Origin: Candidatus Microgenomates bacterium
GTDB taxonomy: Bacteria; Patescibacteriota; Microgenomatia; UBA1400; UBA12108
Assembly (NCBI GenBank): GCA_003576945.1
Contig: QEVC01000010.1
Coordinates: 1-35,277, forward strand
Length of the DNA stretch: 35,277 nt
Direction: 5' to 3'
Position numbers and translations under genes: made by a program. Below are positions 10,939-32,889 of this stretch, one piece after another (positions within the stretch are counted from its first letter, which is position 1; the number at the start of each line of letters is the position of its first letter). The notes beneath the pieces were generated by a model that worked only from the letters and a program-made list of their open reading frames with translations, searched no databases and was not told the origin of the DNA.

Positions 10939-11714
10939 TGAACATATTTCTTGTGATTGTGATATTTTTTCTAGGAGCCTCGGTTGGGAGTTTTGTAAAT
11001 GTGCTAGTCTCAAGAAGTATTGCGGGTAGCGACTGGCTTAGGGGCCGTTCGCAGTGTGAGAGGTGTGGAAAGCCACTTGCTTGGTATGACATGATCCCCC
11101 TACTATCTTTTGCAATATATAGAGGCAAGAGTAGATGTTGTAAGAGAAGTTTATCAATGGCACACCCAATTGTAGAAGGACTGTTTGGAATGTTATTTGT
11201 TTGGTGGTTATTAGTTGGATTTATTTTTTTTCAACTGGCGACTGCACCCTGGACGATTGTTCAGCCTATTTTTTGGCTGGGTATTGGGATACTCTTGTTG
11301 ATGATTATGGTTGCTGACGCTACTTATGGTGTGATTCTGATGCCATTTATTTATATCTCTATAATATGGATCTACGGATACCGATTCGCACTCGCGATAT
11401 CTGGGACTTATCAGTGGACTGACTTAGGAATCACGCTGCTTTCTGGTGTTTTGAGTTTTGGATTTTTGCAAGCGCTACACGTGATTACAAAAGGGAGAGG
11501 CATGGGTGATGGAGACCCATATCTGGCCTTTGTGACAGGCTCGCTTCTTTCAGGTATTGCGGCGTTTTGGGGGATGCTCTCGGCATTTATACTTGGTGCG
11601 GTATGGGGTATAGGACTGATATTATTATCACTCAAAAAAATGAGTCAAACGATACCCTTTGGACCATTCTTGGTGATAGGGTGTTTGATTACGCTTTTAG
11701 TTATTCGTTTCTAG
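10938..11714 (+). CDS. pilD: Prepilin peptidase (leader peptidase/N-methylase)
   Basis: Polytopic aspartic protease that cleaves prepilins after the leader Gly and usually N-methylates the new N-terminus. Residues 1-90 form the N-terminal domain with GSFVNV, CERCGKPLAWYDMIPLLSF and HPIVE. The catalytic Asp pair is predicted at Asp127 (VADATYGVI) and Asp191 in GRGMGDGD. About seven to eight membrane segments are apparent. The zinc-type double CXXC is incomplete: Cys40/Cys43 are present, but the second pair reads SRCC (Cys67, Cys68) instead of CXXC. The start ATG overlaps the pilin stop (TAATG), and the 3' end overlaps the convergent pilin operon by 14 bp. Confidence 0.93.
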   Translation: MNIFLVIVIFFLGASVGSFVNVLVSRSIAGSDWLRGRSQCERCGKPLAWYDMIPLLSFAIYRGKSRCCKRSLSMAHPIVEGLFGMLFVWWLLVGFIFFQLATAPWTIVQPIFWLGIGILLLMIMVADATYGVILMPFIYISIIWIYGYRFALAISGTYQWTDLGITLLSGVLSFGFLQALHVITKGRGMGDGDPYLAFVTGSLLSGIAAFWGMLSAFILGAVWGIGLILLSLKKMSQTIPFGPFLVIGCLITLLVIRF

Positions 11715-12195
11715 TCCCGACAGTTGTTTCGAAATGGAGGTTGGGGTTTTCGCGTGCATTACCGCTTGAAATGGTGTGTGCCATGTCAAAACTAATTTTA
11801 AAGAGTACAGGATTGGTTTCATCGGGTTCACAGGTAATACTAAACCTCGAAACTTCGAGCGTGTTGGGAGTCATGTAGATTCCTGAGTTGCTTGCAATAC
11901 GAGTTGCTGTCCCATCATCTTCAACCATAATGTCGGTTGTATCCCCGTCTGGGTTTACTGTGATAAGAACGTCCAAGTCTGCATCACAGGACTCGACATG
12001 GCGAGAGTTTCTAATTAATGTTTGGATTTGATTGAGTGCGATCTCGCCTGATTGTTTAATTTGGGTGAGTCTTCTAACCCGGTTACTACTTACGATGGTT
12101 GTGAGCATGATGGCTGACATAGCTAGCGCGAGGAGGCTAATTAAGCCAATAACGACTACCAATTCGATGATTGAGGTTCCTTTTCTTATTTCCAT
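11701..12195 (-). CDS. PilW-like minor prepilin
   Basis: Prepilin-like protein with leader MEIRKG, site G|TSIIELVVVIGLISLLAL, and a membrane/alpha-1 helix to about residue 30. Two cysteines (SCDAD and ITCEP) may form a disulphide. The combination of position last in the run, size (164 aa) and a long alpha-1 region with RVRRLTQIKQSGEIALNQI resembles PilW/PulJ-type minor pilins; this subtype is inferred. It overlaps the preceding gene by 10 nt and the convergent pilD by 14 nt. Confidence 0.75.
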   Translation of the reverse strand: MEIRKGTSIIELVVVIGLISLLALAMSAIMLTTIVSSNRVRRLTQIKQSGEIALNQIQTLIRNSRHVESCDADLDVLITVNPDGDTTDIMVEDDGTATRIASNSGIYMTPNTLEVSRFSITCEPDETNPVLFKISFDMAHTISSGNARENPNLHFETTVGTRNE

Positions 12196-12668
12196 TGAGA
12201 AAGCTCCATGTTAAGTACAGCTCGCCTAGTAGACGAATCTTCCCAGGAAGTTGTAATTGTAATTGGAATAATTCCAGCACTTATATTACTTACATCCACT
12301 ACTAGATCTCGCAAGAAGGCGGTTCCTTGAATTACATCTGTATCGCTACAAGCGCCAGAATTAAGTGCCAAAAAGGAGGTCGAATCAGGGGGTAGAACAG
12401 CAAGGCAGTAATTTGCGACTCCCCCACTGCTATCATTTGCGAACATTTCAGCAAGGGTTGCATAGCCTAGTTGATTTTTCTGATTACGAAGGTAGTCTGC
12501 TGCTTGGTTGTTGTAGGCAGTTGCTGTGTCTAGTTTTTTGGCATAATTACTACTCTTTTGAGATTGGTTGGTGAGAGAGAGGGCGGCAATAACACCCATA
12601 CTAATTAGGGTAGTTGCGATAACGACTTCGAGGATGCTTTGACCTGAGCGAATACTATTCTTTTTCAT
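12186..12668 (-). CDS. PilV-like minor prepilin
   Basis: Prepilin-like protein (160 aa) with an N-terminal segment MKKNSIRSG|QSILEVVIATTLISMGVIA, matching the PilV/PulI pattern of a variable residue at +1 and Glu at +5. The remaining domain is short, with Cys at NYCLA and GACSD. It is an inner member of the seven-gene run and overlaps both neighbours (4 nt upstream, 10 nt downstream), so translation is probably coupled. The subtype is inferred from the N-terminus only. Confidence 0.75.
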   Translation of the reverse strand: MKKNSIRSGQSILEVVIATTLISMGVIAALSLTNQSQKSSNYAKKLDTATAYNNQAADYLRNQKNQLGYATLAEMFANDSSGGVANYCLAVLPPDSTSFLALNSGACSDTDVIQGTAFLRDLVVDVSNISAGIIPITITTSWEDSSTRRAVLNMELSQWK

Positions 12669-13147
12669 AGAGAGATCTTTCCCAGAGATTTTAAAGTCCC
12701 GCTGCGTTCTATTTCGATGCGATAAGTGGCATTGCCATTGGTGAAATCCAGATTTTGAGTGCTAGTTGCCCCCGTGTTTATCCCCTGGTTTAGGGGACGA
12801 AAAATAATGGTGTTAGCTGTGGCAAACGTAAAGCTGTTTAGATCGTAATTGTGTGTTTCGCCATTGCCATTTTGGCAAGTGGAAGTGACTGTGATTGACC
12901 TACTACCGATACTAGTAGTAAGTCTTTCACCGAGGTAGGGGCCAAAAGTTTCGGTACAGTCTACCTTGCCACTAGTTGCAGTCTTTTGAGCACGGGTTAT
13001 AACCTCTATAATTTTTTCTGTATCTGACTTGATGGCTTGAATTTCGGCGGCACGTCCATAAGCCGTTACCCCGGTCGTGACCAAAATAGTCAAGATAGTT
13101 ACTGTGATCAGTAGTTCGATTAAGGTATAACCAGATTTTAAGAGCAT
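12665..13147 (-). CDS. GspH/FimT-like minor prepilin
   Basis: Prepilin-like protein (160 aa): leader MLLKSG, site G|YTLIELLITVTILTILVTT. The pattern after the helix (TEKIIEVITRAQKTATSGK and a beta-rich C-terminus with TIIFRP and a late YRIEIERSG strand) resembles GspH/FimT pseudopilins. Two cysteines (KVDCTE, STCQN) could bridge. Its stop overlaps the next start by 4 nt. Confidence 0.78.
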   Translation of the reverse strand: MLLKSGYTLIELLITVTILTILVTTGVTAYGRAAEIQAIKSDTEKIIEVITRAQKTATSGKVDCTETFGPYLGERLTTSIGSRSITVTSTCQNGNGETHNYDLNSFTFATANTIIFRPLNQGINTGATSTQNLDFTNGNATYRIEIERSGTLKSLGKISL

Positions 13148-13166
13148 TGATATCAGTATAACTTAC

Positions 13167-13583
13167 TTAGGGATTAGCAACACAATAGGTGGGGTCAGAT
13201 GCTGCGTTCTCTAGCTCAGCACATAAAGTATAGGTTGTAGCGCTAGTTCGAGTGTAGGTGTAAGTATAGCCAGCAGTTCCCTCCTTGGGGTCTGTGGGGA
13301 TAGTCGTAATATAGTCTGGTGAGAGACCGCTAAGTCCACCAGTTGCGGGGTAGCTGGCAGTCTCTGAGCGATAAGTTTCGAGGGCTTGTCTGAGTTGTTC
13401 GAGATCAGTCTTACGGCGACTGTCGCGTGAGAGCTGTAACGTACGGGTGTAACTAATACTGCCAACAGCGATTAAGATGCTGATGATGGCAATAACGACG
13501 AGGAGCTCGATTAAGGTAAAGCCGCGTCGAGTGTGCAAGGTATAAGTTGAAAGTTGGAAGTTAAGATGATTATTTATCCTCAT
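13167..13583 (-). CDS. Type IV prepilin/GspG-like pseudopilin, paralogue 4
   Basis: Prepilin with G|FTLIELLVVIAIISILIAVG. I chose the ATG at 13583, which lies 2 nt after the upstream stop; a longer frame to 13631 would overlap that gene by 46 nt. The leader is then about 20 residues, unusually long. The mature part has the GspG-like run SRDSRRKTDLEQLRQALETY, ASYPATGG, and the C-terminal YTYTRTSATTYTLCAELENA shared with its upstream paralogues, ending in a Cys pair around DPTYC. Four genes of this subtype stand in tandem. Confidence 0.82.
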   Translation of the reverse strand: MRINNHLNFQLSTYTLHTRRGFTLIELLVVIAIISILIAVGSISYTRTLQLSRDSRRKTDLEQLRQALETYRSETASYPATGGLSGLSPDYITTIPTDPKEGTAGYTYTYTRTSATTYTLCAELENAASDPTYCVANP

Positions 13584-13585
13584 GT

Positions 13586-14017
13586 TTATTGTTTGTTTTG
13601 GACGCAGTAATAATCTCCTGCCTCGTCCCAATCACAAGAGGTCCCGGCGGGACCATTGGCGTTACCACCACCACCTTCTAGTGTAGCACAGACGCAGTAG
13701 GCAGAAGTCGAAATATTGTCATAGTTGATTGGAGTGGAGTCGCGTGGGTCTTTGGGGAGAGCCTCATTGTCAAAAGCGAGCGCGGGAGTGGTCGGGTAAC
13801 TATTAGTGGTGGCATAGTATTGCTCGAAGGCGGTCTGGACGTTGTGCAGGATCTGCTTGCGGCTGGCGTCTCGCGCCTGTTTTTGGGCAGTAATAAAGTT
13901 GGCAATGCCGATACTCATCACAATCCCGATTATCGCGATGACGACAAGGAGTTCGATAAGAGTAAAGCCGAGATGTGGTTTTGCCATAGATTTTGGTTTT
14001 TTATTCACAAACGACAT
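13586..14017 (-). CDS. Type IV prepilin/GspG-like pseudopilin, paralogue 3
   Basis: Prepilin with LG|FTLIELLVVIAIIGIVMSIG. The longest start (14017) overlaps the previous gene by 17 nt and gives a 17-residue leader; the internal Met11 (13987) gives a 7-residue leader MAKPHLG more typical of the class. Neither has a clear Shine-Dalgarno. The mature part keeps QARDASRKQILHNVQTAFEQYY and NSYPTTPA but its C-terminus differs from the paralogues, with a Gly/Asn-rich stretch (GGGGNANGPAG) and four cysteines. Confidence 0.8.
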   Translation of the reverse strand: MSFVNKKPKSMAKPHLGFTLIELLVVIAIIGIVMSIGIANFITAQKQARDASRKQILHNVQTAFEQYYATTNSYPTTPALAFDNEALPKDPRDSTPINYDNISTSAYCVCATLEGGGGNANGPAGTSCDWDEAGDYYCVQNKQ

Positions 14018-14462
14018 AGTCTGTTCCCGATCCTACCCCACAACGAGCCTGCGAGTCAGCGGCATCAGGGTCGGAGGCATTTTCGAGCTCGGCAGTTAAG
14101 GTGTAGGTATCGGCACTCGTCTGGGTGTAGGTATAGTAGCGGGGATTAGAGGTTGTTGAACTGGGGTCGAGTGGGAGCGAGTTCATGTAGGTGTTGGTGC
14201 TGGCAAAGGCAGAGCCCCAGGTGCAAGCAGTTGTACCGTCGCTACAACCTTCGATGATACCATTAGTTGAGGTAGGGTAACTGCCAAAGTCGTTGTAATA
14301 GAGTCTGAGGGCGGTTTTGATGGCGTTGAGATCAGATTTGCGGCGAGCATCACGAGCACGTTCCCTAACTCCCTGGACATTGGTTAAAACAAGAGCAGAA
14401 AGAATGCCAATAATGGTGATTACGATTAAGAGTTCGATTAAGGTAAAGCCACGTTTAATCAT
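14001..14462 (-). CDS. Type IV prepilin/GspG-like pseudopilin, paralogue 2
   Basis: Prepilin with leader MIKRG and site G|FTLIELLIVITIIGILSALV. The mature region has RERARDARRKSDLNAIKTAL, GSYPTSTNGII, a CSDGTTACTWG loop and the block YTYTQTSADTYTLTAELENA shared with paralogue 4, then a C-terminal Cys pair. Length is 153 aa. Start and stop overlap neighbours (4 nt with the upstream gene), consistent with one polycistronic message. Confidence 0.85.
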   Translation of the reverse strand: MIKRGFTLIELLIVITIIGILSALVLTNVQGVRERARDARRKSDLNAIKTALRLYYNDFGSYPTSTNGIIEGCSDGTTACTWGSAFASTNTYMNSLPLDPSSTTSNPRYYTYTQTSADTYTLTAELENASDPDAADSQARCGVGSGTDYVVCE

Positions 14463-14908
14463 TGGATGTTACTACTAGTTATTTTGTAATTACAGTCGGC
14501 GCCGGCGCAAGTAACTGCAGGCTCGATAGTCATAATCGCGGGATCTTGTGCGTTTTCTAGTCTGGTGTAAAGTGTATAGCTGGTGCCATCGCTGACATAA
14601 ATATAGGCAGTGGTTGCTTCGGGGAGTGTTGCGGCATAAGTTGTTGTGCCATCTGTAAATGGCTCGCCCCAGTCACAAATTGTATTGGGTGGATTGCAGA
14701 CAATGTGGCCATTGCTACTGGTGGGATAACTGCGGTGATCATTGACGTAAGCTTCGAGGCTTTTGGCGATGGTGGTGAGATCTGATTTCTTCTTAGCGTC
14801 TGCCGCCTTTAGTCTGGCACTCTGAAAGTTGCCAAAACCAATTGTGGCTAGTATCCCCAGGATTGCCATGCTAATTAATAGTTCAATTAAGGTGAAGCCC
14901 TTCTTCAT
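14459..14908 (-). CDS. Type IV prepilin/GspG-like pseudopilin, paralogue 1
   Basis: First gene of the seven-gene minus-strand prepilin operon. Leader MKKG, site G|FTLIELLISMAILGILATIG. The mature part has LKAADAKKKSDLTTIAKSLE, RSYPTSSNGHIVC, CDWGEPF and the family block YIYVSDGTSYTLYTRLENAQ, then two cysteines. The ATG is 9 nt from a predicted -10 box and lacks a leader, so the operon is probably transcribed leaderless from 14918-14946. Confidence 0.85.
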   Translation of the reverse strand: MKKGFTLIELLISMAILGILATIGFGNFQSARLKAADAKKKSDLTTIAKSLEAYVNDHRSYPTSSNGHIVCNPPNTICDWGEPFTDGTTTYAATLPEATTAYIYVSDGTSYTLYTRLENAQDPAIMTIEPAVTCAGADCNYKITSSNIQ

Positions 14909-18781: not shown

Positions 18782-19454
18782 GAGTGTTTTTGGCGGCATC
18801 CTCTTGAGCAGCTTGTTTACTCTTACCAGTACCCTTGTTATATGATTGATTGTTGATAACTACTTGCATGACAAATTCCTTATCGTGATCTGGTCCTGCT
18901 TCGGAGATAAGGTTGTATTGAGGTGTTGCCTTGAATCTTGCCTGAGAGACTTCTTGGAGGAAGGACTTATTGTCCTTATATAGACCACCAGTGATAACCT
19001 TCTCAGCTTTTGGAAAAAGCTCTGATTTTAAGATCTCTGCTACACTCTCTAGACCTAGGTCTAGGTAAATTGCACCCAGAAAGGCTTCAAAGGCGTCAGC
19101 AAGGATTGATTTGTTCGTTTGGCCACCTGTGGCTGCCTCGCCCTTACTCATCAGAATGATCTTGGGGAAATTAAGGGTCTCAGCAATCTCGGCAAGCGAT
19201 TCGGTTCTAACGAGCGCGGCGCGAATGTTGGTCAGCATCCCTTCCTGATAATCGGGGTAAGATTTGTAGAGGTAATCACTCGTAATTAGCTCAAGGACTG
19301 CGTCTCCTAGATACTCAAGTCGTTCATTACTTTCTTTAAAATTTGTACTTTCATTTAAGTAGCTGCGATGAACAAAGGCATTCTCGATGAGATGATGATT
19401 TTTTGGGCTAAGATTTAGTGTTGTTAATAGCGCTGTGAGACTAGAGTTAGTCAT
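18759..19454 (-). CDS. rnc: Ribonuclease III
   Basis: Double-strand-specific endoribonuclease for rRNA processing and RNA decay. The signature NERLEYLGDAVLEL contains catalytic Glu47 and Asp51; the second metal pair is Asp120/Glu123 in LADAFEAFLGAIYLD. A C-terminal dsRBD (about 160-231) ends with GTGKSKQAAQEDAAKNTL. I chose the ATG at 19454 (231 aa), which has AAAGGAA about 8 nt upstream and overlaps nusB by 8 nt; a longer in-frame start at 19517 would lie deep inside nusB. Confidence 0.95.
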   Translation of the reverse strand: MTNSSLTALLTTLNLSPKNHHLIENAFVHRSYLNESTNFKESNERLEYLGDAVLELITSDYLYKSYPDYQEGMLTNIRAALVRTESLAEIAETLNFPKIILMSKGEAATGGQTNKSILADAFEAFLGAIYLDLGLESVAEILKSELFPKAEKVITGGLYKDNKSFLQEVSQARFKATPQYNLISEAGPDHDKEFVMQVVINNQSYNKGTGKSKQAAQEDAAKNTLEQILHS

Positions 19455-23287: not shown

Positions 23288-25873
23288 ATGCAAGAATGGT
23301 TATCGACTTGGCGGGTCAGAAATAGCGGAAGAAGGATGCGGGTTAATTATAGAAGGTTTGATAAGGCGACGATTCTTAAATATCTAGGAATATTGTCTTT
23401 GATTGGCGTTGTTGTTGGGATAATCTTGCTATTGATAGTTTTGGCATGGACGGCGCGGAGCCTACCGGACCCTAATACGGTTATCAGAAGAGATGGATTT
23501 AGTACTAAAATTGTTGATCGTGATGGAGAGACTTTGTACGATCTATACACTGATTACAATCGCCTACCAGTTCAATTTGAAGAGATATCTCCACTTCTGA
23601 GACAAGCGACTGTAGCGGTCGAAGATAAAGAATTTTATACCCATGAAGGATTTAGTATATGGGGGATGATCCGTGGTGGCTCGAGGCTCTTTACCAGGGG
23701 TAGGGCTCAAGGTGGATCGACACTCACCCAGCAATTAGTTAAGAACGTCCTACTTACCTCTGATCGTAGCTTGGTCCGGAAGATCAAAGAGCTAGTACTG
23801 GCTATTCAGATAGAGCGGAAGTTTAGTAAAGACGAAATCTTGACGATGTACCTTAACGAAGCACCATATGGAGGGACTGCGGTAGGTATTGCCGCGGCGG
23901 CTGAGCGTTATTTTGGCAAGTTACCATCTGACTTAACACTTACCCAAGCGGCAATCTTGGCGGGAATGCCCCAAGCACCATCTAGATATTCGCCATATGG
24001 TAATGATCCTACCGCCTACATAGGCAGAACTACGGCGGTTTTACGTCGGATGAGAGAAGATGGCTATATTGATAAGACGGCAGAGGAAGCGTCACTGGCT
24101 GAGTTACCCAATGTCGAGTTTAAAGACCAGAGTGTCGAAATACGGGCCCCCCACTTTGTGTTTTATGTAAAAGATCAGCTAGTAGACCTACTAGGTGAAG
24201 CGGTGGTTGAGCAGGGTGGCTATACCGTAACAACTACTCTCGACTCTGAACTCCAAGAGCTAGCGCAAACGACAGTTGCAGAAGAAATAGGTAAGTTAGA
24301 AAAAGCTGGGATTGGCAACGGGGCGGCAATGGTGATGAATCCCCAAAATGGTGAAATTCTCTCGATGGTGGGATCGAAGGATTATTTTGCCACTGACTAC
24401 GACGGTGAAGTGAATGTGGTCATGTCACTAAGACAGCCTGGGAGTACGATCAAACCAGTGACATACGCGGCGGCATTTGCGAAGGGCTACTCCCCTGCTA
24501 CCATGCTTTTAGATGTCCCCACTAAGTTCCCGGGGGGTAAAGAAGGTGAGTTTTATGAGCCGAAGAACTATGATGGCAAGTTTCATGGACCAACCCAACT
24601 ACGTTTTGCGCTCGGGTCTTCGCTAAATATCCCTGCGGTCAAGCTCTTGTCACTTGTTGGCTTAAAAGACATGTTGTCGCTTGCTTACAACATGGGTTTT
24701 GAGTCGCTAGAGCCTACAACTGAGAATATGAAGCGCTTTGGGTTGTCAGTGACTCTAGGTGGCGGTGAGGTGCGTCTATATGACCTGGTACGCGCATATA
24801 GTGCGTTTGCGAATGGGGGGGAGCGAATCGAACCAGTTTCGATCCTTAAAGTAGAGCGTGACGGTCAGGTAATCTACGAAGCCAAGCAAGCAAAAAAGCA
24901 AAGAGTCATATCGGAAGAAGTGGCATTCTTAATCAATCATGTGTTGTATGACAATAACGCGCGACTCCTTACTTTTGGGGCTAATAGCTATCTAAATATG
25001 AATGGTCGGTCAATTGCGGTTAAGACTGGAACAACTAATGATAAGCGAGATAACTGGACGATCGGCTGGAGTACCAACGCGGTGGTAGGGGTATGGGTGG
25101 GGAATAACGATAACTCGCCGATGAAGGACGTGGCCTCGGGGGTAACTGGAGCGTCTCCCATCTGGCGAAAAATCATGCTTAAGGCCTGGGAGAAGTATAG
25201 GGGCGAAGATTTTGTGCCACCGAGTAATGTCGAAGCGAGACAAGTTGATACAGTATCAGGGTATCCTGAACACGATGGTTACCCTGCTCGTGCGGATTAT
25301 TTTGTCAAAGGAACTGCGCCAACTGAGCCTGATCCAATTCATACAAAAGTCAAGGTTTGTCGTAGTGATGAAAATAAATTAGCACCCGAAGTAGATGTGG
25401 CGCGTGGTGAGTATAACGAAAAAGTATTCTATGTTCTTAAACCAGAGAGTAACAACTGGATTGATGATATCCAAAATTGGATTGATTCACAGGGTGATCC
25501 TGCCTACAAAGTGCCACGCGAATATTGTAGTGCCGACACAGATCTAGTGATCGGATTTGAGAAACCGGGAAATGAGAGTCGGATTAACTCGAATAGTTTT
25601 AATGTTCGAGTTAAGGTAACTACCGCAAAAGATATTGAATGGGTTAGGCTTTATAGTAATGGGAGTGAGATCGAGAGCTTTGGGAGTGAAAAGTCCATTT
25701 CGACTAACATTACCTTGCCTGATGGCACATATGAGCTGATGGCTAAGGTTAAAACTAAAGATGGAAGTGAGAAAGATACGAGGATAAAAATCGGAGTAAA
25801 TATGGACTGGAACGCGAGTCCATCACCCTCGCTTAGTCCTAGTCCTTCCCTTACTCCTTCTTCTACTCCTTAG
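23288..25873 (+). CDS. Class A penicillin-binding protein (PBP1A-type, bifunctional)
   Basis: Peptidoglycan glycosyltransferase and transpeptidase. Signal anchor at about 29-54. The GT51 domain has VEDKEFYTHEG (catalytic Glu112), GGSTLTQQ (142-149), QIERKFSKDEIL and YLNEAPYGG. The transpeptidase domain has SxxK at Ser386-Lys389 (PGSTIKP), SxN at Ser445-Asn447 and KTG at 579-581 (KTGTTND). After residue about 750 an Ig-like domain and a Ser/Pro/Thr-rich tail (SPSLSPSPSL) extend outside. 861 aa. The start is supported by an extended -10 box 7 nt upstream; an internal ATG at 23336 is an alternative. The stop overlaps the convergent pheT stop (TTAG). Confidence 0.93.
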   Translation: MQEWLSTWRVRNSGRRMRVNYRRFDKATILKYLGILSLIGVVVGIILLLIVLAWTARSLPDPNTVIRRDGFSTKIVDRDGETLYDLYTDYNRLPVQFEEISPLLRQATVAVEDKEFYTHEGFSIWGMIRGGSRLFTRGRAQGGSTLTQQLVKNVLLTSDRSLVRKIKELVLAIQIERKFSKDEILTMYLNEAPYGGTAVGIAAAAERYFGKLPSDLTLTQAAILAGMPQAPSRYSPYGNDPTAYIGRTTAVLRRMREDGYIDKTAEEASLAELPNVEFKDQSVEIRAPHFVFYVKDQLVDLLGEAVVEQGGYTVTTTLDSELQELAQTTVAEEIGKLEKAGIGNGAAMVMNPQNGEILSMVGSKDYFATDYDGEVNVVMSLRQPGSTIKPVTYAAAFAKGYSPATMLLDVPTKFPGGKEGEFYEPKNYDGKFHGPTQLRFALGSSLNIPAVKLLSLVGLKDMLSLAYNMGFESLEPTTENMKRFGLSVTLGGGEVRLYDLVRAYSAFANGGERIEPVSILKVERDGQVIYEAKQAKKQRVISEEVAFLINHVLYDNNARLLTFGANSYLNMNGRSIAVKTGTTNDKRDNWTIGWSTNAVVGVWVGNNDNSPMKDVASGVTGASPIWRKIMLKAWEKYRGEDFVPPSNVEARQVDTVSGYPEHDGYPARADYFVKGTAPTEPDPIHTKVKVCRSDENKLAPEVDVARGEYNEKVFYVLKPESNNWIDDIQNWIDSQGDPAYKVPREYCSADTDLVIGFEKPGNESRINSNSFNVRVKVTTAKDIEWVRLYSNGSEIESFGSEKSISTNITLPDGTYELMAKVKTKDGSEKDTRIKIGVNMDWNASPSPSLSPSPSLTPSSTP

Positions 25874-27720
25874 GTTTTTGATTTGATATTGAGTTTTTTG
25901 GTTACTTTGGCAATAACTTCTGACAACTCTGTATCAATCGATTTTTCATTATGCGACCAAGTGAGGGTGAGAACGTAGTTAATGTCTTGGCCTACCTTAT
26001 CGATCGACTTGCAGGTGTAACTGAAATTGGGTTTTGTAATTTCGATTACTGAAGCGATATCAAAATAGGTAACATGCTTTGGAGCGATAAGCGAAATATC
26101 TCGCTTTATGACATGGGTAAAATCACTAATTATGCCTGTGTATTTTTGTTGATATTGCATAAGTAGTGCAGTATCTAGAGTTACTGCCCCACCTTCGAGT
26201 TGGCCTACAGTAGTATTAGAAATAATGACTTCACCTGTGTTGGAAACCAGGTACTTGATGCCTAGTAGGTGCATCAGGGTTGCGAGTGAATGTCCTACTT
26301 CAGGTCCGACGATAGCCAGCTCTCTAATTTCTTGATATTTGCCATTTGATTGTTTGAATGATTTGCCAATCTCAAAAATGATCGGAACACCTACTTGATG
26401 TTTATGGTAGTTAGTACGGACCTCCATCAACATAGGCTTTGCGCTTGTTCTTAACGCATTCTGGTCGGCGCTAAGCGCGTTACTCAGGAGAATTTCGCCA
26501 CTATCACCACTTTCTTTAACGAGACTCGCGGTAATGTGTTCGTGGGCACCAAATGAAACTAGCAAGTCTCGTAGGTGGTCTTCAAAAGTAAGAATAGCTG
26601 GAGTAATATCCTTTGGTACAGGAGTATCTAGCGGGGAGGTGGGAATAGAGCTATAGTCGTTAATCCGGAGAATATCGGCAACAATATCATCCTCTACCTC
26701 AACGTCAGTGCGGAAATAAGGAACTTTTAGCGTTAAACCATCTTTGGTACTACTGAGGATCTGATATTCGAGGGCAGTCAAAATACGTTTGACGACCGAA
26801 ATAGGTAAATCCATCCCACTCAAAATCTTGAGGCGAGCAAAGGTTAATTTTTGGATCAGTGGAGCTGGTGGAGCTGGGTAATAATCGGAGTTTTGGTACA
26901 CGATTGCACCAGAAATAGTCTCGAGGAGATAGGTCGCTCGATCGAGAGCGATCTCGCACAAGTCGGGGTGGAGGAACTTGTCATAACGACTCACGGTTTC
27001 GTTGATAATTTTGAGTTTGCGGCTGTTTTTTCTGATTACACTTTGATCGTAGTTGCCGGCATCCAATATGATTTCGGTAGTGTCATGTGTTACGCTTGTT
27101 TCGACCCCACCGACTATACCGCCAATTACGATTGCTACTCCCCCACTACTGAGGACAAAGATATCTTTATCTAGGGTGACGGTAGTCCCGAGGATAGTCC
27201 TGACTGTTTCGCCAGCTTTTGCGGGTCTGAGGGTTATCTCGCTCTTTTTTAATTTAGCGAGATCTTGGGCGTGCATGGGCTGACCGAGCTCGACCATGAC
27301 GTAGTTGGTAATGTCGACGACATTGTTGATACTTTTAATACCATAGGCGGTGAGTCTTTCTTTGAGCCAATCTGGCGACTCCCCCACTTTGACATTTTTA
27401 ACCACTCTGGTATTGAAACGACGAACGGCAGGAGTGCTTACTGTAATTTCGACCATCTCGGAAGGTGAGACGAGGGGCAGCTTTTTCGTATTGGATTTTG
27501 GATAATTTAACTTTAGCTTATTAAAGGCGGCATAATCACGCGCGCATCCTATGATACTTAGCCAGTCCGAACGGTCCATACGGTGTTCGAGATCGAGGAC
27601 TCCTGAGTTATCTAATGGCTTGTCGAGCATGAGGCCAAGTTGGGTAAAGCTCGCGGCAATCTCCCGGGGAGATTTGTCGGTACTTACGTAGTCTTTTAGC
27701 CAGTTAAGTGGGATCTTCAT
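25870..27720 (-). CDS. pheT: Phenylalanyl-tRNA synthetase beta subunit, OB domain absent
   Basis: Non-catalytic partner of PheS in the (alpha-beta)2 enzyme; hosts the editing site and tRNA contacts. The B1 start MKIPLNWLKDYV and EHRMDRSDWLSIIGCARDYA (equivalent to E. coli VTPNRADCLGIIGVARD) are only about 40 residues apart, whereas E. coli has about 150 between them, so the EMAP-type OB tRNA-binding domain (B2) is missing. The B3/B4 block (VVDITNYVMVELGQPMHAQD), B5 and a C-terminal FDX-ACB domain (FTHVIKRDISLIAP to the end) remain. 616 aa versus about 800 in E. coli. It follows pheS after a 63-nt spacer built of repeats. Confidence 0.92.
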   Translation of the reverse strand: MKIPLNWLKDYVSTDKSPREIAASFTQLGLMLDKPLDNSGVLDLEHRMDRSDWLSIIGCARDYAAFNKLKLNYPKSNTKKLPLVSPSEMVEITVSTPAVRRFNTRVVKNVKVGESPDWLKERLTAYGIKSINNVVDITNYVMVELGQPMHAQDLAKLKKSEITLRPAKAGETVRTILGTTVTLDKDIFVLSSGGVAIVIGGIVGGVETSVTHDTTEIILDAGNYDQSVIRKNSRKLKIINETVSRYDKFLHPDLCEIALDRATYLLETISGAIVYQNSDYYPAPPAPLIQKLTFARLKILSGMDLPISVVKRILTALEYQILSSTKDGLTLKVPYFRTDVEVEDDIVADILRINDYSSIPTSPLDTPVPKDITPAILTFEDHLRDLLVSFGAHEHITASLVKESGDSGEILLSNALSADQNALRTSAKPMLMEVRTNYHKHQVGVPIIFEIGKSFKQSNGKYQEIRELAIVGPEVGHSLATLMHLLGIKYLVSNTGEVIISNTTVGQLEGGAVTLDTALLMQYQQKYTGIISDFTHVIKRDISLIAPKHVTYFDIASVIEITKPNFSYTCKSIDKVGQDINYVLTLTWSHNEKSIDTELSEVIAKVTKKLNIKSKT

Positions 27721-27783: not shown

Positions 27784-28803
27784 TTAGACATAGACAAGTT
27801 CGCCTCCGTAGAGTTTTCTGATGTCCTTGATTCCGTATTTACTCATGACTAGCCGGTCCAATCCCATCCCAAAGGCATATCCGGTGTAGGTCTCAGGATC
27901 GATGTCACACGCTTTCATGGTATTGTAATGAATCATGCCGCTGCCGAGTACTTCGATAAAGCCACGATATTTGCAGACTGAGCAACCACTCCCTTTGCAA
28001 AATCTACATTGCATATCGACACCCATACCTGGACTAACTTCGGGGTAGTACTTGTAACGGAAACGTAGCTTTACATCATCACCGAATAAAAACTGATGGA
28101 ACTTAGTTAGCGTGTCTTTTAGGTGCTGAATGGTGATCCCCCTGTCTACGACAAATCCCTGATATTGGTAGAAGAAGCTAGTGTTCGTGGCACTATTGGT
28201 TTCGTTTCTATAACATTTTCCAGGCACGACGACACGGAGTGGGAGTTTATCATGGTATTCGGAGAGGATCCTAGTCTCGACACTGCTAGTATGAGTCCGC
28301 ATGAGGTACTGTGGTTCTTTGACAAAGAGAGAGTCTTGGAGATCGGTGGCGGGGTGACCCTCGGGGAGGTTGAGACGACGGAAATTATACTCAACATCCT
28401 CTAGCTCCGGACCTTCGCCGATACTAAAACCAAGATAGCGGAAGAACTCATTCATTTCTCTAATAATTGTGGTTGTAGGGTGAAGGTGGCCGGTGGGGAG
28501 GATTGCACCTGGGATTGTTAGATCGATATCTATATTTCCCTGTGTTTGATTTAATTCCTCTCGCTTAGAATTAATTATTTCTTCTTGGTTAGTTCTTAAC
28601 TTGTTGAATATCGGGCCATATTGTTTTTTGTCTTCAGGTAACATCTCCTTAATTAGTTTAAGTAAGTTAGTGGTGGTGCCTTTCCTGCCAAGATATTCTA
28701 AGTAGAATTCATCTAGATCTGAAATGGAGATGATGCTATCGATTCTTTCAAGAAACGACTCTCTACACAATTTATATTGCGAATCTATTTGATCTGATGT
28801 CAT
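27784..28803 (-). CDS. pheS: Phenylalanyl-tRNA synthetase alpha subunit
   Basis: Catalytic subunit of PheRS, class II. The N-terminal coiled coil (1-90) that binds tRNA-Phe is followed by motif blocks PTTTIIREMNEFFRYLGF, LMRTHTSS (167-174), CYRNETNS and FYQYQGFVVD, and motif 3 GYAFGMGLDRL. A zinc-knuckle-like loop with Cys266, Cys269, Cys274, Cys277 precedes GFIEVLGSGM; this occurs in a subset of bacterial PheS. 339 aa, normal. ATG at 28803; TAAAAT lies 10 nt upstream. Confidence 0.96.
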   Translation of the reverse strand: MTSDQIDSQYKLCRESFLERIDSIISISDLDEFYLEYLGRKGTTTNLLKLIKEMLPEDKKQYGPIFNKLRTNQEEIINSKREELNQTQGNIDIDLTIPGAILPTGHLHPTTTIIREMNEFFRYLGFSIGEGPELEDVEYNFRRLNLPEGHPATDLQDSLFVKEPQYLMRTHTSSVETRILSEYHDKLPLRVVVPGKCYRNETNSATNTSFFYQYQGFVVDRGITIQHLKDTLTKFHQFLFGDDVKLRFRYKYYPEVSPGMGVDMQCRFCKGSGCSVCKYRGFIEVLGSGMIHYNTMKACDIDPETYTGYAFGMGLDRLVMSKYGIKDIRKLYGGELVYV

Positions 28804-29465: not shown

Positions 29466-29816
29466 CTATTTGATTTTATCGACAATCTTTTTGAAGGTGT
29501 CTGGATCTTGAACAGCAATACCTGCTAAGACTTTACGATCTAGCTCGACTTTTTTGGCACTCATCATGGCGATAAAGCGAGAGTAGGTCAGCTTTTCATC
29601 AATTGCACGAAGAGCGGCATTGATACGAACAATCCAGAGTGAACGGAAATCGCTTTTGCGGTCTTTGCGACCTTGGAAGCTATAATCTAGGGCGTGAAGA
29701 TAGGCTTCGTGCGCGACCTTCCAGAGGCGGTTCTTGGTCATGCGGAAACCGCTAGTCCGCTTGAGAACTTTATTATGGCGAGCGCGTTTTGTTGGTCCAC
29801 CTTTTACTCTTGTCAT
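29466..29816 (-). CDS. rplT: 50S ribosomal protein L20
   Basis: Large-subunit assembly protein. MTRVKGGPTKRARHNKVLKR, GFRMTKNRLWKVAHEAYLHA, YSFQGRKDRKSDFRSLWIVR and YSRFIAMMSAKKVELDRKVL match L20 throughout. 116 aa. Last gene of infC-rpmI-rplT, 4 nt after rpmI. No L20-binding leader pseudoknot could be identified near infC or rpmI. Confidence 0.97.
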   Translation of the reverse strand: MTRVKGGPTKRARHNKVLKRTSGFRMTKNRLWKVAHEAYLHALDYSFQGRKDRKSDFRSLWIVRINAALRAIDEKLTYSRFIAMMSAKKVELDRKVLAGIAVQDPDTFKKIVDKIK

Positions 29817-29820
29817 AGAC

Positions 29821-30012
29821 TTAGATTCCTAGTGCTTTTTTAATACGGCGACCAGTCCCACCAGTCAAGAACTTAACGGTCTTCATGCGGCGTACCTGGG
29901 CGGCGCCTTTGTGACTCCTGTGGTGTCGCATGTTTTGAGTACGGTGAATCATTTTGCCGGTTTTGGTTACCTTAATTCGTCTGACTAGTGATTTACGAGT
30001 TTTGCGCTTCAT
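29821..30012 (-). CDS. rpmI: 50S ribosomal protein L35
   Basis: Small basic ribosomal protein, 63 aa: MKRKTRKSLVRRIKVTKTGK, then HHRSHKGAAQVRR and GRRIKKALGI. The family block normally read as RR.R has the expected spacing. It is 3 nt after infC and 4 nt before rplT, the conserved operon order. Confidence 0.93.
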   Translation of the reverse strand: MKRKTRKSLVRRIKVTKTGKMIHRTQNMRHHRSHKGAAQVRRMKTVKFLTGGTGRRIKKALGI

Positions 30013-30015
30013 AGT

Positions 30016-30528
30016 TTATTTCTTTTTGACTGGATTTAGGATGAGGAAGAGCTGTTTCCCCTGGAGTTTGGTTACTCCATCTGGAGTGGCTGCACCTTCT
30101 AGCCCAGTAAGGACTTTTTTGATAAGTTCGTGACCAAATTCTACACGAGTGATTTGGCGACCGGTAAATTTTACCACAATTTTAACTCTGTTGCCATCGC
30201 TTAGATAAGCTTTTATTTTGGCGAGACGAGAATCCATGTCCCCCTGGGCGATAAAGGGGGTAAAGCGGATTTCTTTGAGTTCCACTTTTCCACTACCCCC
30301 TTTACTGTCACGCTCTTTCTTGGCTTCGATATACTTAAACTTTTTGAAGTCGATGAGCTTGGCAACGGGTGGCTGGGCCATGGGAGCTATTTCTACAAGA
30401 TCTACCTCGAGATTGCGGGCTTTTTCGAGCGCCTCTTCACGCGAGAGTAGACCAACCTGTTTGCCGGTTTCATCCACGACGCGAAGCTCTGGGGCTTTAA
30501 TAAAACTATTGATTGCGTAGTATTTCAG
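30016..30528 (-). CDS. infC: Translation initiation factor IF-3, CTG start
   Basis: Binds the 30S subunit and discriminates against non-canonical start codons. The conventional GTG/ATG start at 30477 would drop conserved N-terminal sequence; reading further up in frame gives LKYYAINSFIKAPELRVVDE, the normal IF-3 start (INxxIRAxEVRVID). No ATG, GTG or TTG exists there; the best start is CTG at 30528, with GGAG 7 nt upstream, giving 170 aa. E. coli infC likewise uses a rare codon (AUU) for autoregulation. The body has LSREEALEKARNLEVDLVEI, KLIDFKKFKYIEAKKE, KEIRFTPFI and the C-terminal domain VKIVVKFTGRQITR. The Shine-Dalgarno is displayed in a hairpin loop. Confidence 0.9.
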   Translation of the reverse strand: MKYYAINSFIKAPELRVVDETGKQVGLLSREEALEKARNLEVDLVEIAPMAQPPVAKLIDFKKFKYIEAKKERDSKGGSGKVELKEIRFTPFIAQGDMDSRLAKIKAYLSDGNRVKIVVKFTGRQITRVEFGHELIKKVLTGLEGAATPDGVTKLQGKQLFLILNPVKKK

Positions 30529-30612: not shown

Positions 30613-32319
30613 TTATGCCTTACTGTTATTCTCCTGAGTTAATTTGGCGAGGACCTCTTCGAGATTGAGCGTGAGCTGGTCTCCAGCGCGGTTTTTGAGG
30701 GTTAAAGTCTGGTTTTTCACTTCGTTCTTGCCGATTACCACGGTGTAGGGCACCTTGAGTTCCCTTGCTTTAACCAGCTTTTTACCCAGTGTCGCATTGG
30801 ACTCATCTAGTTCGACGCGAAAACCGGCAGTCGTTAAATTGCGAACTAACGCTCGACTATACTCTAGCTCTCCCTTGGAGATCGGAAGAAGTAAGAGCTG
30901 AACTGGTGCAAGCCAGAGGGGGAAAGCACCGGCATAATGCTCGAGTAGTACCATGAGGGCGCGCTCAGAGGAACCAAGAATGGCACGGTGGATCATAACA
31001 GGACGTTTCCGCGTCCCATCTTCGGCGGTATATTCGAGCTCAAAGCGCTCAGGTTGGACCATGTCGATCTGGACTGTCGAGAGCTGCCATTCACGGCCTA
31101 GTGCATCCGTGGCCATGAGATCCATTTTGGGTCCGTAGAAAGCGGCTTCGCCGGGGCCATCGTAGTATGGGATATTATTGCGCTCCATAATGGTAACGGC
31201 CCATTTTTCGAGCTTGTCCCAGACTTTGGGATCTCCTAGATATTTCTCTGGGTGTTCTGGGTCACGAGTAGAGAGGCGGTAGCGATATTTAAAGCCAAAA
31301 GTATCCATGATTTCTTTGGTCATGGCTAGTGCCATATCGACCTCGGCGTCGACCTGATCCTCGCGCGCCAAGCCGTTTAGCTCCCCTGGCTTTTCATCGC
31401 GGTAGAGCATAGCAAAGTCAGTGATACGAAATGGAAGGTCACGGTAGCTGCGGGGCTGGCTCGTATAAATCTGGGTATGTTGGGGGCAGTTCATGGGCTT
31501 TAAGAAAAACTCTTCATCGCTGTAGTTACTAACTACCCGAAACATATCTTCTTTATATTTGTCATAATGACCACTTCTTTTGAAAAGTTCGGCCTTGGCG
31601 ATTTGGGGAGTGTGGACCTGGAGATAACCCTGGCGACTCTGTAGTTCTTCGACGTAGCCATTTAAGAGACGGCGAACAAGAGCTCCCTTGGGACTATAGA
31701 GGGGCATACCTGAGCCTACATATTCAGAAAAACTAAAGAGGTCTAGCTCTCGGCCTAGTTTGCGATGATCTCTTTTTTTGGCCTCTTCTTGGAGCCAGAG
31801 ATAGTGATCTAGTTCCTCCTGAGTCGCAAAAGCAGTGCCGTAAATACGAGTCAACATTTTATTTTTTTCATCCCCGCGCCAATAGGCGCCGGCGAGTTTG
31901 GTTAGTTTGAAAATTTTGAGTACTTTGTTGGGTTCTTCGACGTGTCCACCACGACAGAGGTCGCGGAAATCACCAGATTGATAGACCGTGAGAGTTTGGC
32001 CTTCGCTACTAAATTCATTAATCAATTCAAGCTTGTATTCATTATCGCTAAATTCAGACTTAACCTCTTCTACGCTATGTTCATGTCGTTCGAAACTTTT
32101 CCAGGTAGGAATAAGTTGTCGCATTTTCTTTTCTATCTTTAAGAGATCGGCATCAGTTATTTTGATATCGCCAAAATCAAAGTCGTAGTAGAAGCCATTA
32201 TCGATTGCAGGGCCAATGGTGCGTTTGGCATTAGGATATAGCTCCATGACGGCAGCGGCGAGGAGGTGTGCGGCAGAATGGCGTAACTGATTTAAATGAT
32301 CTTGTGGTAAATCTGACAT
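30613..32319 (-). CDS. thrS: Threonyl-tRNA synthetase, TGS-less, with motif 2 deletion
   Basis: Charges tRNA-Thr. There is no TGS domain; the protein starts in the editing domain (HSAAH 14-18, zinc-type CRGGH 122-126). The catalytic core has zinc ligand Cys278 (MNCPQH), motif 2 start YRDE (Arg307-Glu309), motif 3 region IHRAILGS (His444), and a C-terminal anticodon domain (about 460-568). Between Arg319 (GLAR) and Glu320 (EDQVDAEV) exactly 14 residues are absent compared with E. coli, where VRGFTQDDAHIFCT stands; this removes the second strand of motif 2 and the third zinc ligand (E. coli His385). The frame is kept. Such an enzyme should not adenylate threonine, so this is either a real lesion, an enzyme with a replacement elsewhere, or an assembly error. 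AAGGA lies 5 nt before the ATG. Confidence 0.93.
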   Translation of the reverse strand: MSDLPQDHLNQLRHSAAHLLAAAVMELYPNAKRTIGPAIDNGFYYDFDFGDIKITDADLLKIEKKMRQLIPTWKSFERHEHSVEEVKSEFSDNEYKLELINEFSSEGQTLTVYQSGDFRDLCRGGHVEEPNKVLKIFKLTKLAGAYWRGDEKNKMLTRIYGTAFATQEELDHYLWLQEEAKKRDHRKLGRELDLFSFSEYVGSGMPLYSPKGALVRRLLNGYVEELQSRQGYLQVHTPQIAKAELFKRSGHYDKYKEDMFRVVSNYSDEEFFLKPMNCPQHTQIYTSQPRSYRDLPFRITDFAMLYRDEKPGELNGLAREDQVDAEVDMALAMTKEIMDTFGFKYRYRLSTRDPEHPEKYLGDPKVWDKLEKWAVTIMERNNIPYYDGPGEAAFYGPKMDLMATDALGREWQLSTVQIDMVQPERFELEYTAEDGTRKRPVMIHRAILGSSERALMVLLEHYAGAFPLWLAPVQLLLLPISKGELEYSRALVRNLTTAGFRVELDESNATLGKKLVKARELKVPYTVVIGKNEVKNQTLTLKNRAGDQLTLNLEEVLAKLTQENNSKA

Positions 32320-32360: not shown

Positions 32361-32386
32361 ATTAAAAATCCCCTCTTCGGGGACTT
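32361..32386 (-). terminator. thrS attenuator terminator
   Basis: On the minus strand AAGTCCCC-GAAGA-GGGGATTT, an 8-bp stem with one G-T wobble, continuing into TTTTTAAT. It stands between the Thr-rich leader peptide and thrS. Its 5' arm is shared with the antiterminator, so the two cannot coexist. Confidence 0.85.
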
Positions 32387-32415
32387 GTGGAGTCGGCACT
32401 AATACTCCAGTCCCC
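32379..32415 (-). promoter_or_regulatory. thrS antiterminator stem
   Basis: On the minus strand GGGGACT (32415-32409) and GGAGT (32408-32404) pair with ACTCC (32393-32389) and AGTCCCC (32385-32379): 12 bp with a 3-nt bulge and 10-nt loop. The first G is the last base of the leader-peptide stop codon, so a ribosome at that stop would mask the 5' arm and let the terminator form. Confidence 0.8.
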
Positions 32416-32468
32416 TAGGGGTTAGTAGTAGTAGTAGTTGTGGTGGTGAGTATGATTTGATTTAACAT
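32415..32468 (-). CDS. thrS leader peptide with eight consecutive Thr codons
   Basis: A 17-aa ORF MLNQIILTTTTTTTTNP, ATG at 32468 and TAG at 32415-32417. The Thr codons (ACC ACC ACA and five ACT) occupy 32424-32447. The peptide itself probably has no function; its translation senses charged tRNA-Thr. Ribosomes stalled on the Thr codons leave the antiterminator free; ribosomes reaching the stop cover its 5' arm. This is the logic of the thr and pheST attenuators of enteric bacteria, here placed before thrS. The ATG is 11 nt after a TATAAT box, so the transcript has only about five untranslated bases and no Shine-Dalgarno. Confidence 0.85.
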   Translation of the reverse strand: MLNQIILTTTTTTTTNP

Positions 32469-32479
32469 AAATGAGTGCC

Positions 32480-32485
32480 ATTATA
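32480..32485 (-). promoter_or_regulatory. -10 box of the thrS leader promoter
   Basis: Perfect TATAAT on the minus strand, 11 nt before the leader-peptide ATG. The -35 region (around 32503-32508) is weak. Confidence 0.55.
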
Positions 32486-32568
32486 TAACAAAGTCAGAAC
32501 TCATTTCATCACCAAATTTTCCTGATTGCTGGCGACAAATCTCAAAATCTTCCAAAATTGTATGAACA

Positions 32569-32850
32569 CTCTGCAAATGGTGCCCGCCGTCGCACCGATA
32601 GAATCGGTGATCCCGCCTGTTTGGGGTCGCGCCTTCGGCGCGAGTCTCTCCCGCACGCAAATTTTTTGTGATCGCCCGCCAGATGAAAATGAAAAATCCA
32701 TATTGTCGCGAGGCGGGAGAGACATGACCTCACGTTGCCTGACGGCAACAAACAGGCGGTATAGGTCGTTTCACGACCTCGACGGCGGGGTATTTGTACC
32801 CTCTGCATGACGGATTCCCTCCCCCCACCCCTTCCTTCCGCCATGCAGAG
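32569..32850. ncRNA. Large multibranched structured element, candidate novel RNA
   Basis: No protein here is convincing; overlapping frames are low complexity. Perfect stems (plus coordinates): S1 32583-32592/32780-32789 (10 bp); H1 32593-32599/32603-32609 (7 bp, AGA loop); S2 32613-32622/32750-32759 (10 bp); H2 32627-32633/32637-32643 (7 bp, TTC loop); S3 32645-32654/32713-32722 (10 bp); H4 32734-32739/32744-32749 (6 bp); H5 32763-32769/32773-32779 (7 bp); H6 32788-32792/32797-32801; S7 32801-32809/32842-32850 (9 bp). All nest without crossing: S1 encloses H1, S2 and H5; S2 encloses H2, S3 and H4. CTCTGCA at 32569 and TGCAGAG at 32844 bound the whole. GC content is clearly above the flanks. 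The transcribed strand is not decided: GAA loops (minus) slightly favour the minus strand. It does not match RNase P, tmRNA, SRP or 6S RNA landmarks. Confidence 0.75.
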
Positions 32851-32889
32851 CAGGGGAGCATGAAAGAATGAAAAATGGAGGGATTTTGT

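Follow-up and report, generated by a model that had tools for sequence, protein, structure and literature searches.

Patescibacteria make up a large share of bacterial diversity, are mostly uncultivated and probably host-dependent, and have tiny genomes whose gene regulation is little known. How does such a cell control its threonyl-tRNA synthetase? In E. coli, thrS is governed by a translational operator, in which tRNA-like stem-loops over the ribosome-binding site are bound by ThrRS, and in Firmicutes by a T-box, which reads the tRNA directly, without translation, and causes antitermination at low tRNA-Thr charging. Leader peptides offer a further principle: that of E. coli pheST (pheM) is rich in the cognate amino acid and is combined with antiterminator and terminator stems, and the E. 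coli thrABC attenuator (thrL), whose leader has Thr and Ile codons, senses the Thr codons via regions 1 to 4. The locus studied here lies in a window of 35,277 nucleotides (the whole stretch of DNA that was analysed, contig QEVC01000010.1) from a Candidatus Microgenomates bacterium with a genome of 825 kb in 33 contigs and a completeness of 98%. A first-pass annotation of this DNA had proposed a complete threonine-sensing transcription attenuator upstream of thrS. Given the anatomy of the leader, its conservation, the covariation of three pairings and the energetics of the switch, I estimate at roughly 93% the probability that a ribosome-mediated (leader-peptide) transcription attenuator sets thrS, and probably infC, rpmI and rplT too, by the supply of charged tRNA-Thr.

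Anatomy of the thrS leader

The thrS gene is followed on the minus strand by infC, rpmI and rplT. It starts at 32319, and the putative attenuator, which contains a terminator, ends about 45 nt upstream of this start. The features, all given in window coordinates, are:

29466..29816, minus strand: rplT (L20), probably in the thrS operon (TIGR01032, 129.1 bits)
29821..30012, minus strand: rpmI (L35), probably in the thrS operon (TIGR00001, 32.3 bits, below the cut-off of 51.2; sits between infC and rplT)
30016..30516, minus strand: infC (IF-3), probably co-operonic with thrS (TIGR00168, 159.9 bits)
30613..32319, minus strand: thrS, threonyl-tRNA synthetase, the regulated gene (TIGR00418, 610 bits, cut-off 383.65)
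32364..32386, minus strand: intrinsic terminator, pairing 3:4, AAGTCCCC-GAAGA-GGGGATTTTT (-11.3 kcal/mol)
32379..32393, minus strand: region 3, the 3' arm of the antiterminator, ACTCCacaAGTCCCC; its AGTCCCC doubles as the 5' arm of the terminator
32404..32415, minus strand: region 2, the 5' arm of the antiterminator, GGGGACTGGAGT; its first base is the G of the leader TAG
32397..32436, minus strand: pairing 1:2 (protector), Thr codons with the segment past the stop codon, from the minimum free energy structure and the swap tests
32415..32468, minus strand: leader peptide ORF MLNQIILTTTTTTTTNP, 17 sense codons and TAG, with a predicted 5' UTR of only about 4-5 nt
32424..32447, minus strand: control codons, eight Thr in a row (ACC ACC ACA ACT ACT ACT ACT ACT), belonging to region 1
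32480..32485, minus strand: -10 box TATAAT of a putative leader promoter, seen in the sequence, with similar boxes in relatives
32504..32509, minus strand: weak -35-like hexamer ATGAAA, 18 nt from the -10 box (10/12 matches over both hexamers in a consensus scan), by itself no evidence of function

The leader ATG at 32468 is located 11 nt past TATAAT. Regions 2 and 3 form an antiterminator of 12 bp with a 3-nt bulge (-17.1 kcal/mol), and the U-run of the terminator is short, with 5 T. The locus combines a leader ORF with cognate codons, an intrinsic terminator and a mutually exclusive antiterminator, which are the core features of an attenuator that can be judged from sequence. The TATAAT box, the 17-codon frame with eight Thr codons, the antiterminator that starts in the stop codon and the exclusive terminator had all been described in the first-pass annotation, and each is found base-exact and in order on the minus strand. 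Its account of the pairings was right for 2:3 and 3:4, but it overlooked the 1:2 pairing, in which the Thr codons themselves take part. A His-rich overlapping frame, MALIYVKSNHTHHHNYYYY, was rejected on two grounds: its ATG shares bases with the -10 box (TATAATG), so that the RNA would not contain it, and His is not the cognate amino acid of thrS. Farther upstream, beyond the putative thrS promoter, the intergenic stretch at 32560-32860 is G+C-rich and holds several hairpin-like inverted segments.

Within the window, a run of six ACN codons occurs at this site only, and it was not seen in any of 100 shuffles. The fold of the leader as a single sequence is not significant (z-score -1.18), and a simple terminator scan leaves the leader terminator unflagged. 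As single-sequence folding is insignificant, it is the comparative tests that carry weight. I also scanned essentially the whole source genome (about 824 kb) for places outside long ORFs at which a short ORF with a single-amino-acid run precedes a terminator, and this gave no second convincing leader with terminator, just a few chance-like matches. Rfam searches of the window and of the DNA upstream of thrS in relatives, with or without the attenuator, returned tRNAs as the sole matches; a gathering-score match to the Rfam thr leader model is absent in the window. For the T-box, there was no cmscan match, and the motif GGUGGNACCRCG is absent from the window and from the fetched remainder of the genome.

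Conservation and covariation among relatives

The upstream regions of thrS from the same order and class were scanned for at least 4 Thr within 7 codons plus a terminator. The order was represented by 88 genomes, 81 of which had thrS at the threshold used, and the class by 70 thrS regions, nearly all from outside the order. A Thr-run leader with terminator precedes thrS in 50 of the 144 upstream regions, and runs of any other amino acid in at most 5 of the 144 (the runner-up is Leu, 5/144). One of the 50 matches (G213), which has the wrong layout, was not used in the structure tests. The same scan and threshold were applied to 80 named thrS loci, the majority of them from different phyla or from other Patescibacteria, and no such leader was found. 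The 28 thrS regions from other classes of the phylum yielded one candidate (G338), which I do not count as firm: its Thr run and terminator are present, but the ribosome-masking model described below shows no switch.

Within the family of the source genome, one relative (G002) has the leader MIQSKLISTTTTYP and stems nearly identical to those of the window, and another (G003) has the leader MKLVIRITTTTTIR in an identical layout, with stem letters that are all different (CGCGGGGGAGTG / CTCACTCCCGCG / CTCCCGCG-CCA-CGCGGGAGTTTT). Besides the source genome, four members of the family have intact DNA upstream of thrS, and two of these, G001 and G004, lack the attenuator; in a further member, G005, this DNA is cut by the contig end. 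Elsewhere in the order, it is found in the majority of genomes of the large family f10 and in members of f1, f4 and f14, and the scan gave none in f3, f5, f7, f9, f12 and f15. In the rest of the class, it occurs in f16, f19 (most members), f26, f29, f42 and f45. The absence from G001, G004 and several families of the order implies that the attenuator is dispensable or has been replaced there. The element upstream of thrS was thus correctly proposed for this genome, but it is not peculiar to it, being spread across the class.

It had also been anticipated that relatives would retain the Thr run while the flanking sequence diverged, and this is what is observed, among others in the leaders MIQSKLISTTTTYP, MKLVIRITTTTTIR, MKKFLNLITTTTTNP and MIRRYQTTTTTTTP. 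The choice of Thr codons differs from genome to genome, start and stop are in frame each time, and leader peptides of different genera share little apart from the Thr run.

For the pairings, I used a swap test, in which the pairing of each sequence with its own partner is compared with pairings to partners from other genomes, over 20,000 permutations, using one sequence per genus (n=32) and, separately, 37 sequences of the order alone. In the 32 genera, the own partners of 2:3 pair at -8.87 kcal/mol against -7.14 kcal/mol after permutation, and those of 3:4 at -11.95 against -7.54 kcal/mol; not one of the 20,000 permutations equalled this in either case, nor did any for the order alone. The 1:2 pairing gives -15.43 against -13.86 kcal/mol (22/20,000; 6/20,000 for the order alone). 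The control pairs 1:3, 2:4 and 1:4 were not significant in the 32 genera. Kinship biases this test against detection, as close relatives make good foreign partners. The stems 2:3 and 3:4 hence covary, as had been expected if the attenuator were real, and the comparison indicates that each of the pairings 1:2, 2:3 and 3:4 is maintained by sequence-specific partners across the 32 genera.

Predicted switching and competing explanations

The proposed sequence of events would begin with RNA polymerase initiating a few nucleotides upstream of the leader ATG, and with the first ribosome translating the leader close behind the polymerase, a coupling that attenuation requires and that I infer for these bacteria. 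When Thr-tRNA is plentiful, the ribosome would reach the stop codon and, as region 2 begins in that codon, would cover region 2, so that 3:4 could form and transcription would end. When charged tRNA-Thr is scarce, the ribosome would stall in the Thr run, 2:3 would pair, the terminator would be blocked and the polymerase would read through into thrS. In most relatives, an untranslated leader would also lead to termination, with the Thr codons of region 1 pairing with region 2.

These states were examined in 51 leaders with a model in which the ribosome is an unpairable footprint, its stall position being defined by the A site on the given codon; the model yields equilibrium folds, and is not a kinetic simulation. 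The median probability of the terminator is 0.99 without a ribosome. With the ribosome at the first, middle and last Thr codon it is 0.22, 0.04 and 0.81, respectively, and at the stop codon it is 1.00. At both tested stalls, the first and the middle Thr codon, 13 of the 51 leaders remain at or above 0.5. When the spacer that separates the stop codon from the terminator is dinucleotide-shuffled, the mean of the stalled minimum is 0.70, compared with 0.27 for the real sequences (Wilcoxon p = 1e-8), and in the model, shuffling the spacer abolishes the switch. For the leader of the window, the corresponding probabilities are 0.03 without a ribosome, 0.01 at the first Thr codon, 0.00 at the middle one, 0.99 at the last one, where termination is predicted, and 1.00 at the stop codon. 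As modelled, it thus obeys the rule of read-through upon starvation and termination upon plenty. Unlike the leaders of most relatives, it is predicted to be antiterminated when no ribosome translates it, which means that this state would not be shut off.

Could the arrangement be fortuitous, a low-complexity ACT repeat and an unused short ORF that happen to lie beside a common intergenic terminator or the place where a transcript from upstream ends? The unremarkable single-sequence fold and the unflagged terminator would fit this, and slippage could create ACT repeats. However, slippage would not be expected to leave Thr codons that vary between genomes, start and stop are in frame each time, the stems covary, and the contrast between Thr runs in 50 of 144 relatives and runs of any other amino acid in no more than 5 is difficult to ascribe to chance; the swap test and the conservation in distant genera make this reading very unlikely. 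Nor does it seem credible that a functional Thr-rich peptide is made from the small ORF and that the hairpins do no more than end the transcript of that ORF, even though the ORF looks translatable and has a promoter-like box and a terminator of its own: the peptides share little across genera beyond the Thr run, conservation lies in the pairing instead of the peptide, and the ORF is always located directly before thrS.

Another explanation is feedback by ThrRS, which would bind the leader RNA as it binds the operator in E. coli, where thrS is known to be controlled in this way. Region 2 is GGUGGUCGUGG-like in many relatives, and its GGU/CGU/UGU triplets resemble tRNA-Thr anticodons. Any segment that pairs with Thr codons is bound to contain such triplets, however, and the element lies upstream of the terminator, off the ribosome-binding site of thrS. 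Feedback of this kind also leaves the in-frame Thr codons, the position of the stop codon and the exclusive 2:3 and 3:4 stems unexplained, and the same layout recurs with Phe or His codons before pheS and hisS (see below), which renders it distinctly unlikely. Leader-peptide attenuation remains the preferred reading; use of the promoter and a response to threonine are what it predicts.

Leader 5' ends, known systems and other synthetases

The leader start codon of most relatives lies 6-11 nt past the end of a TATAAT-like box, so that the predicted transcript would start at this codon or within a few nucleotides of it. The leader had been called nearly leaderless in the first-pass annotation, and judged by these boxes, nearly leaderless starts are predicted to recur across relatives. 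A second form is seen in G002, G264 and G219, in which the leader starts directly at, or a few nucleotides past, the 3' end of a tRNA-Val(GAC) gene; in these tRNA-linked forms, processing of the tRNA may make the 5' end of the leader. The same tRNA gene also directly precedes thrS in relatives without the attenuator, e.g. G001. Directly or shortly before thrS or its Thr leader ORF, tRNA-Val(GAC) was noted at L007:3371-3447 (minus strand), at L009:1388-1462 (plus strand) and in L236, L247, L253, L254 and L271; in L247, the leader ATG is overlapped by a CCA-like tRNA end (CCACCATG). Among the traits of the thrS leaders, none is as unusual as the near-leaderless starts and the tRNA-linked forms.

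Compared by layout, one close likeness is to E. coli pheST, a synthetase gene under a cognate-codon leader peptide with alternative stems, from which the present case differs in its gene (thrS), its Thr codons, its nearly leaderless leader and its reduced patescibacterial genome. With E. coli thrABC it shares the sensing of Thr codons and the regions 1 to 4, but the thrABC attenuator controls biosynthesis and here a synthetase is concerned; the window is without an Rfam match. With the T-box of Firmicutes it would share antitermination of thrS when tRNA-Thr charging is low, a prediction here, whereas it depends on translation in the proposed model and has no T-box match or motif. By analogy, then, the thrS attenuator would work like those of E. 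coli pheST and thrABC, and it is the lineage and the gene setting that are new. If so, thrS gains a third type of control, in addition to the T-box and the operator of E. coli, and this points to more than one independent invention. The conserved attenuator would likewise be sequence evidence for transcription-translation coupling, for the sensing of individual amino acids and for the use of intrinsic terminators in Patescibacteria.

The combination had been announced as new, which holds for the setting but is slightly too strong, as a leaderless leader peptide with Thr codons, thrL, has already been proposed, if on weak grounds, before thrS of Streptomyces lividans (PMC8079986). As far as the available text of that article goes, thrL has two Thr codons only (MKRVRPFLETTPGFVPAR) and one hairpin without a U-run, its authors call termination "not clear", and comparative support, such as is presented here, is not given for it (PMC8079986). 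Outside Proteobacteria, His leader peptides in which a terminator follows a series of cognate codons are described for hisS/hisZ of bacilli (PMC2965389); these concern His and Firmicutes, whereas Thr is concerned here. In the literature on Patescibacteria and Microgenomates outside subscription journals, I found no report of leader-peptide attenuation.

Other synthetase genes in the class show comparable arrangements. Candidates with a Phe-run leader and terminator before pheS are present in four genomes, G003 (MSHKENLFFFFTTS), G043 (MTGKLALTSFFFFSHC), G072 and G073 (loci L312, L317, L327 and L331), and a His-run leader with terminator precedes hisS in about five, G055, G060, G063, G073 and, weaker, G189 (loci L361, L365, L367, L370 and L377). 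The masking model predicts the expected switch in most of these leaders, and fails in pheS of G043 and in hisS of G073 and G189. At a threshold of 3 Trp, no Trp-codon attenuator was detected before trpS, and the few genes fetched for synthetases of the tRNA-synt_1 family gave no clear attenuator upstream. A scan of G073 (800 kb) for further attenuators gave mostly noise, except for the hisS leader and a T-box-like motif. The latter, located in L476 near plus-strand position 19297 and read on the minus strand, consists of GGTGGTACCACG and then a T-run before an AlaRS-like ORF, and resembles a T-box; both control systems may therefore coexist in the lineage. The odds seem about even that leader-peptide attenuation on nearly leaderless ORFs is old and widely used in Microgenomatia in the broad sense to match individual synthetases to amino acid supply, many families using it for thrS and some for pheS and hisS, with 3' processing of tRNA-Val making some of the leader 5' ends.

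Two further observations concern the window itself. Its PheS and PheT (27787-28803 and 25873-27720, minus strand) score below the NCBIfam cut-offs. With 616 aa, PheT is a short protein whose match begins at profile position 156 of 798, so that the N-terminal part seems to be absent. At 11701-14908 on the minus strand, six or seven ORFs, each about 150 aa long, are clustered, and four of them carry the N-terminal methylation motif of type IV pilins, which marks this as a putative pilin or pseudopilin cluster.
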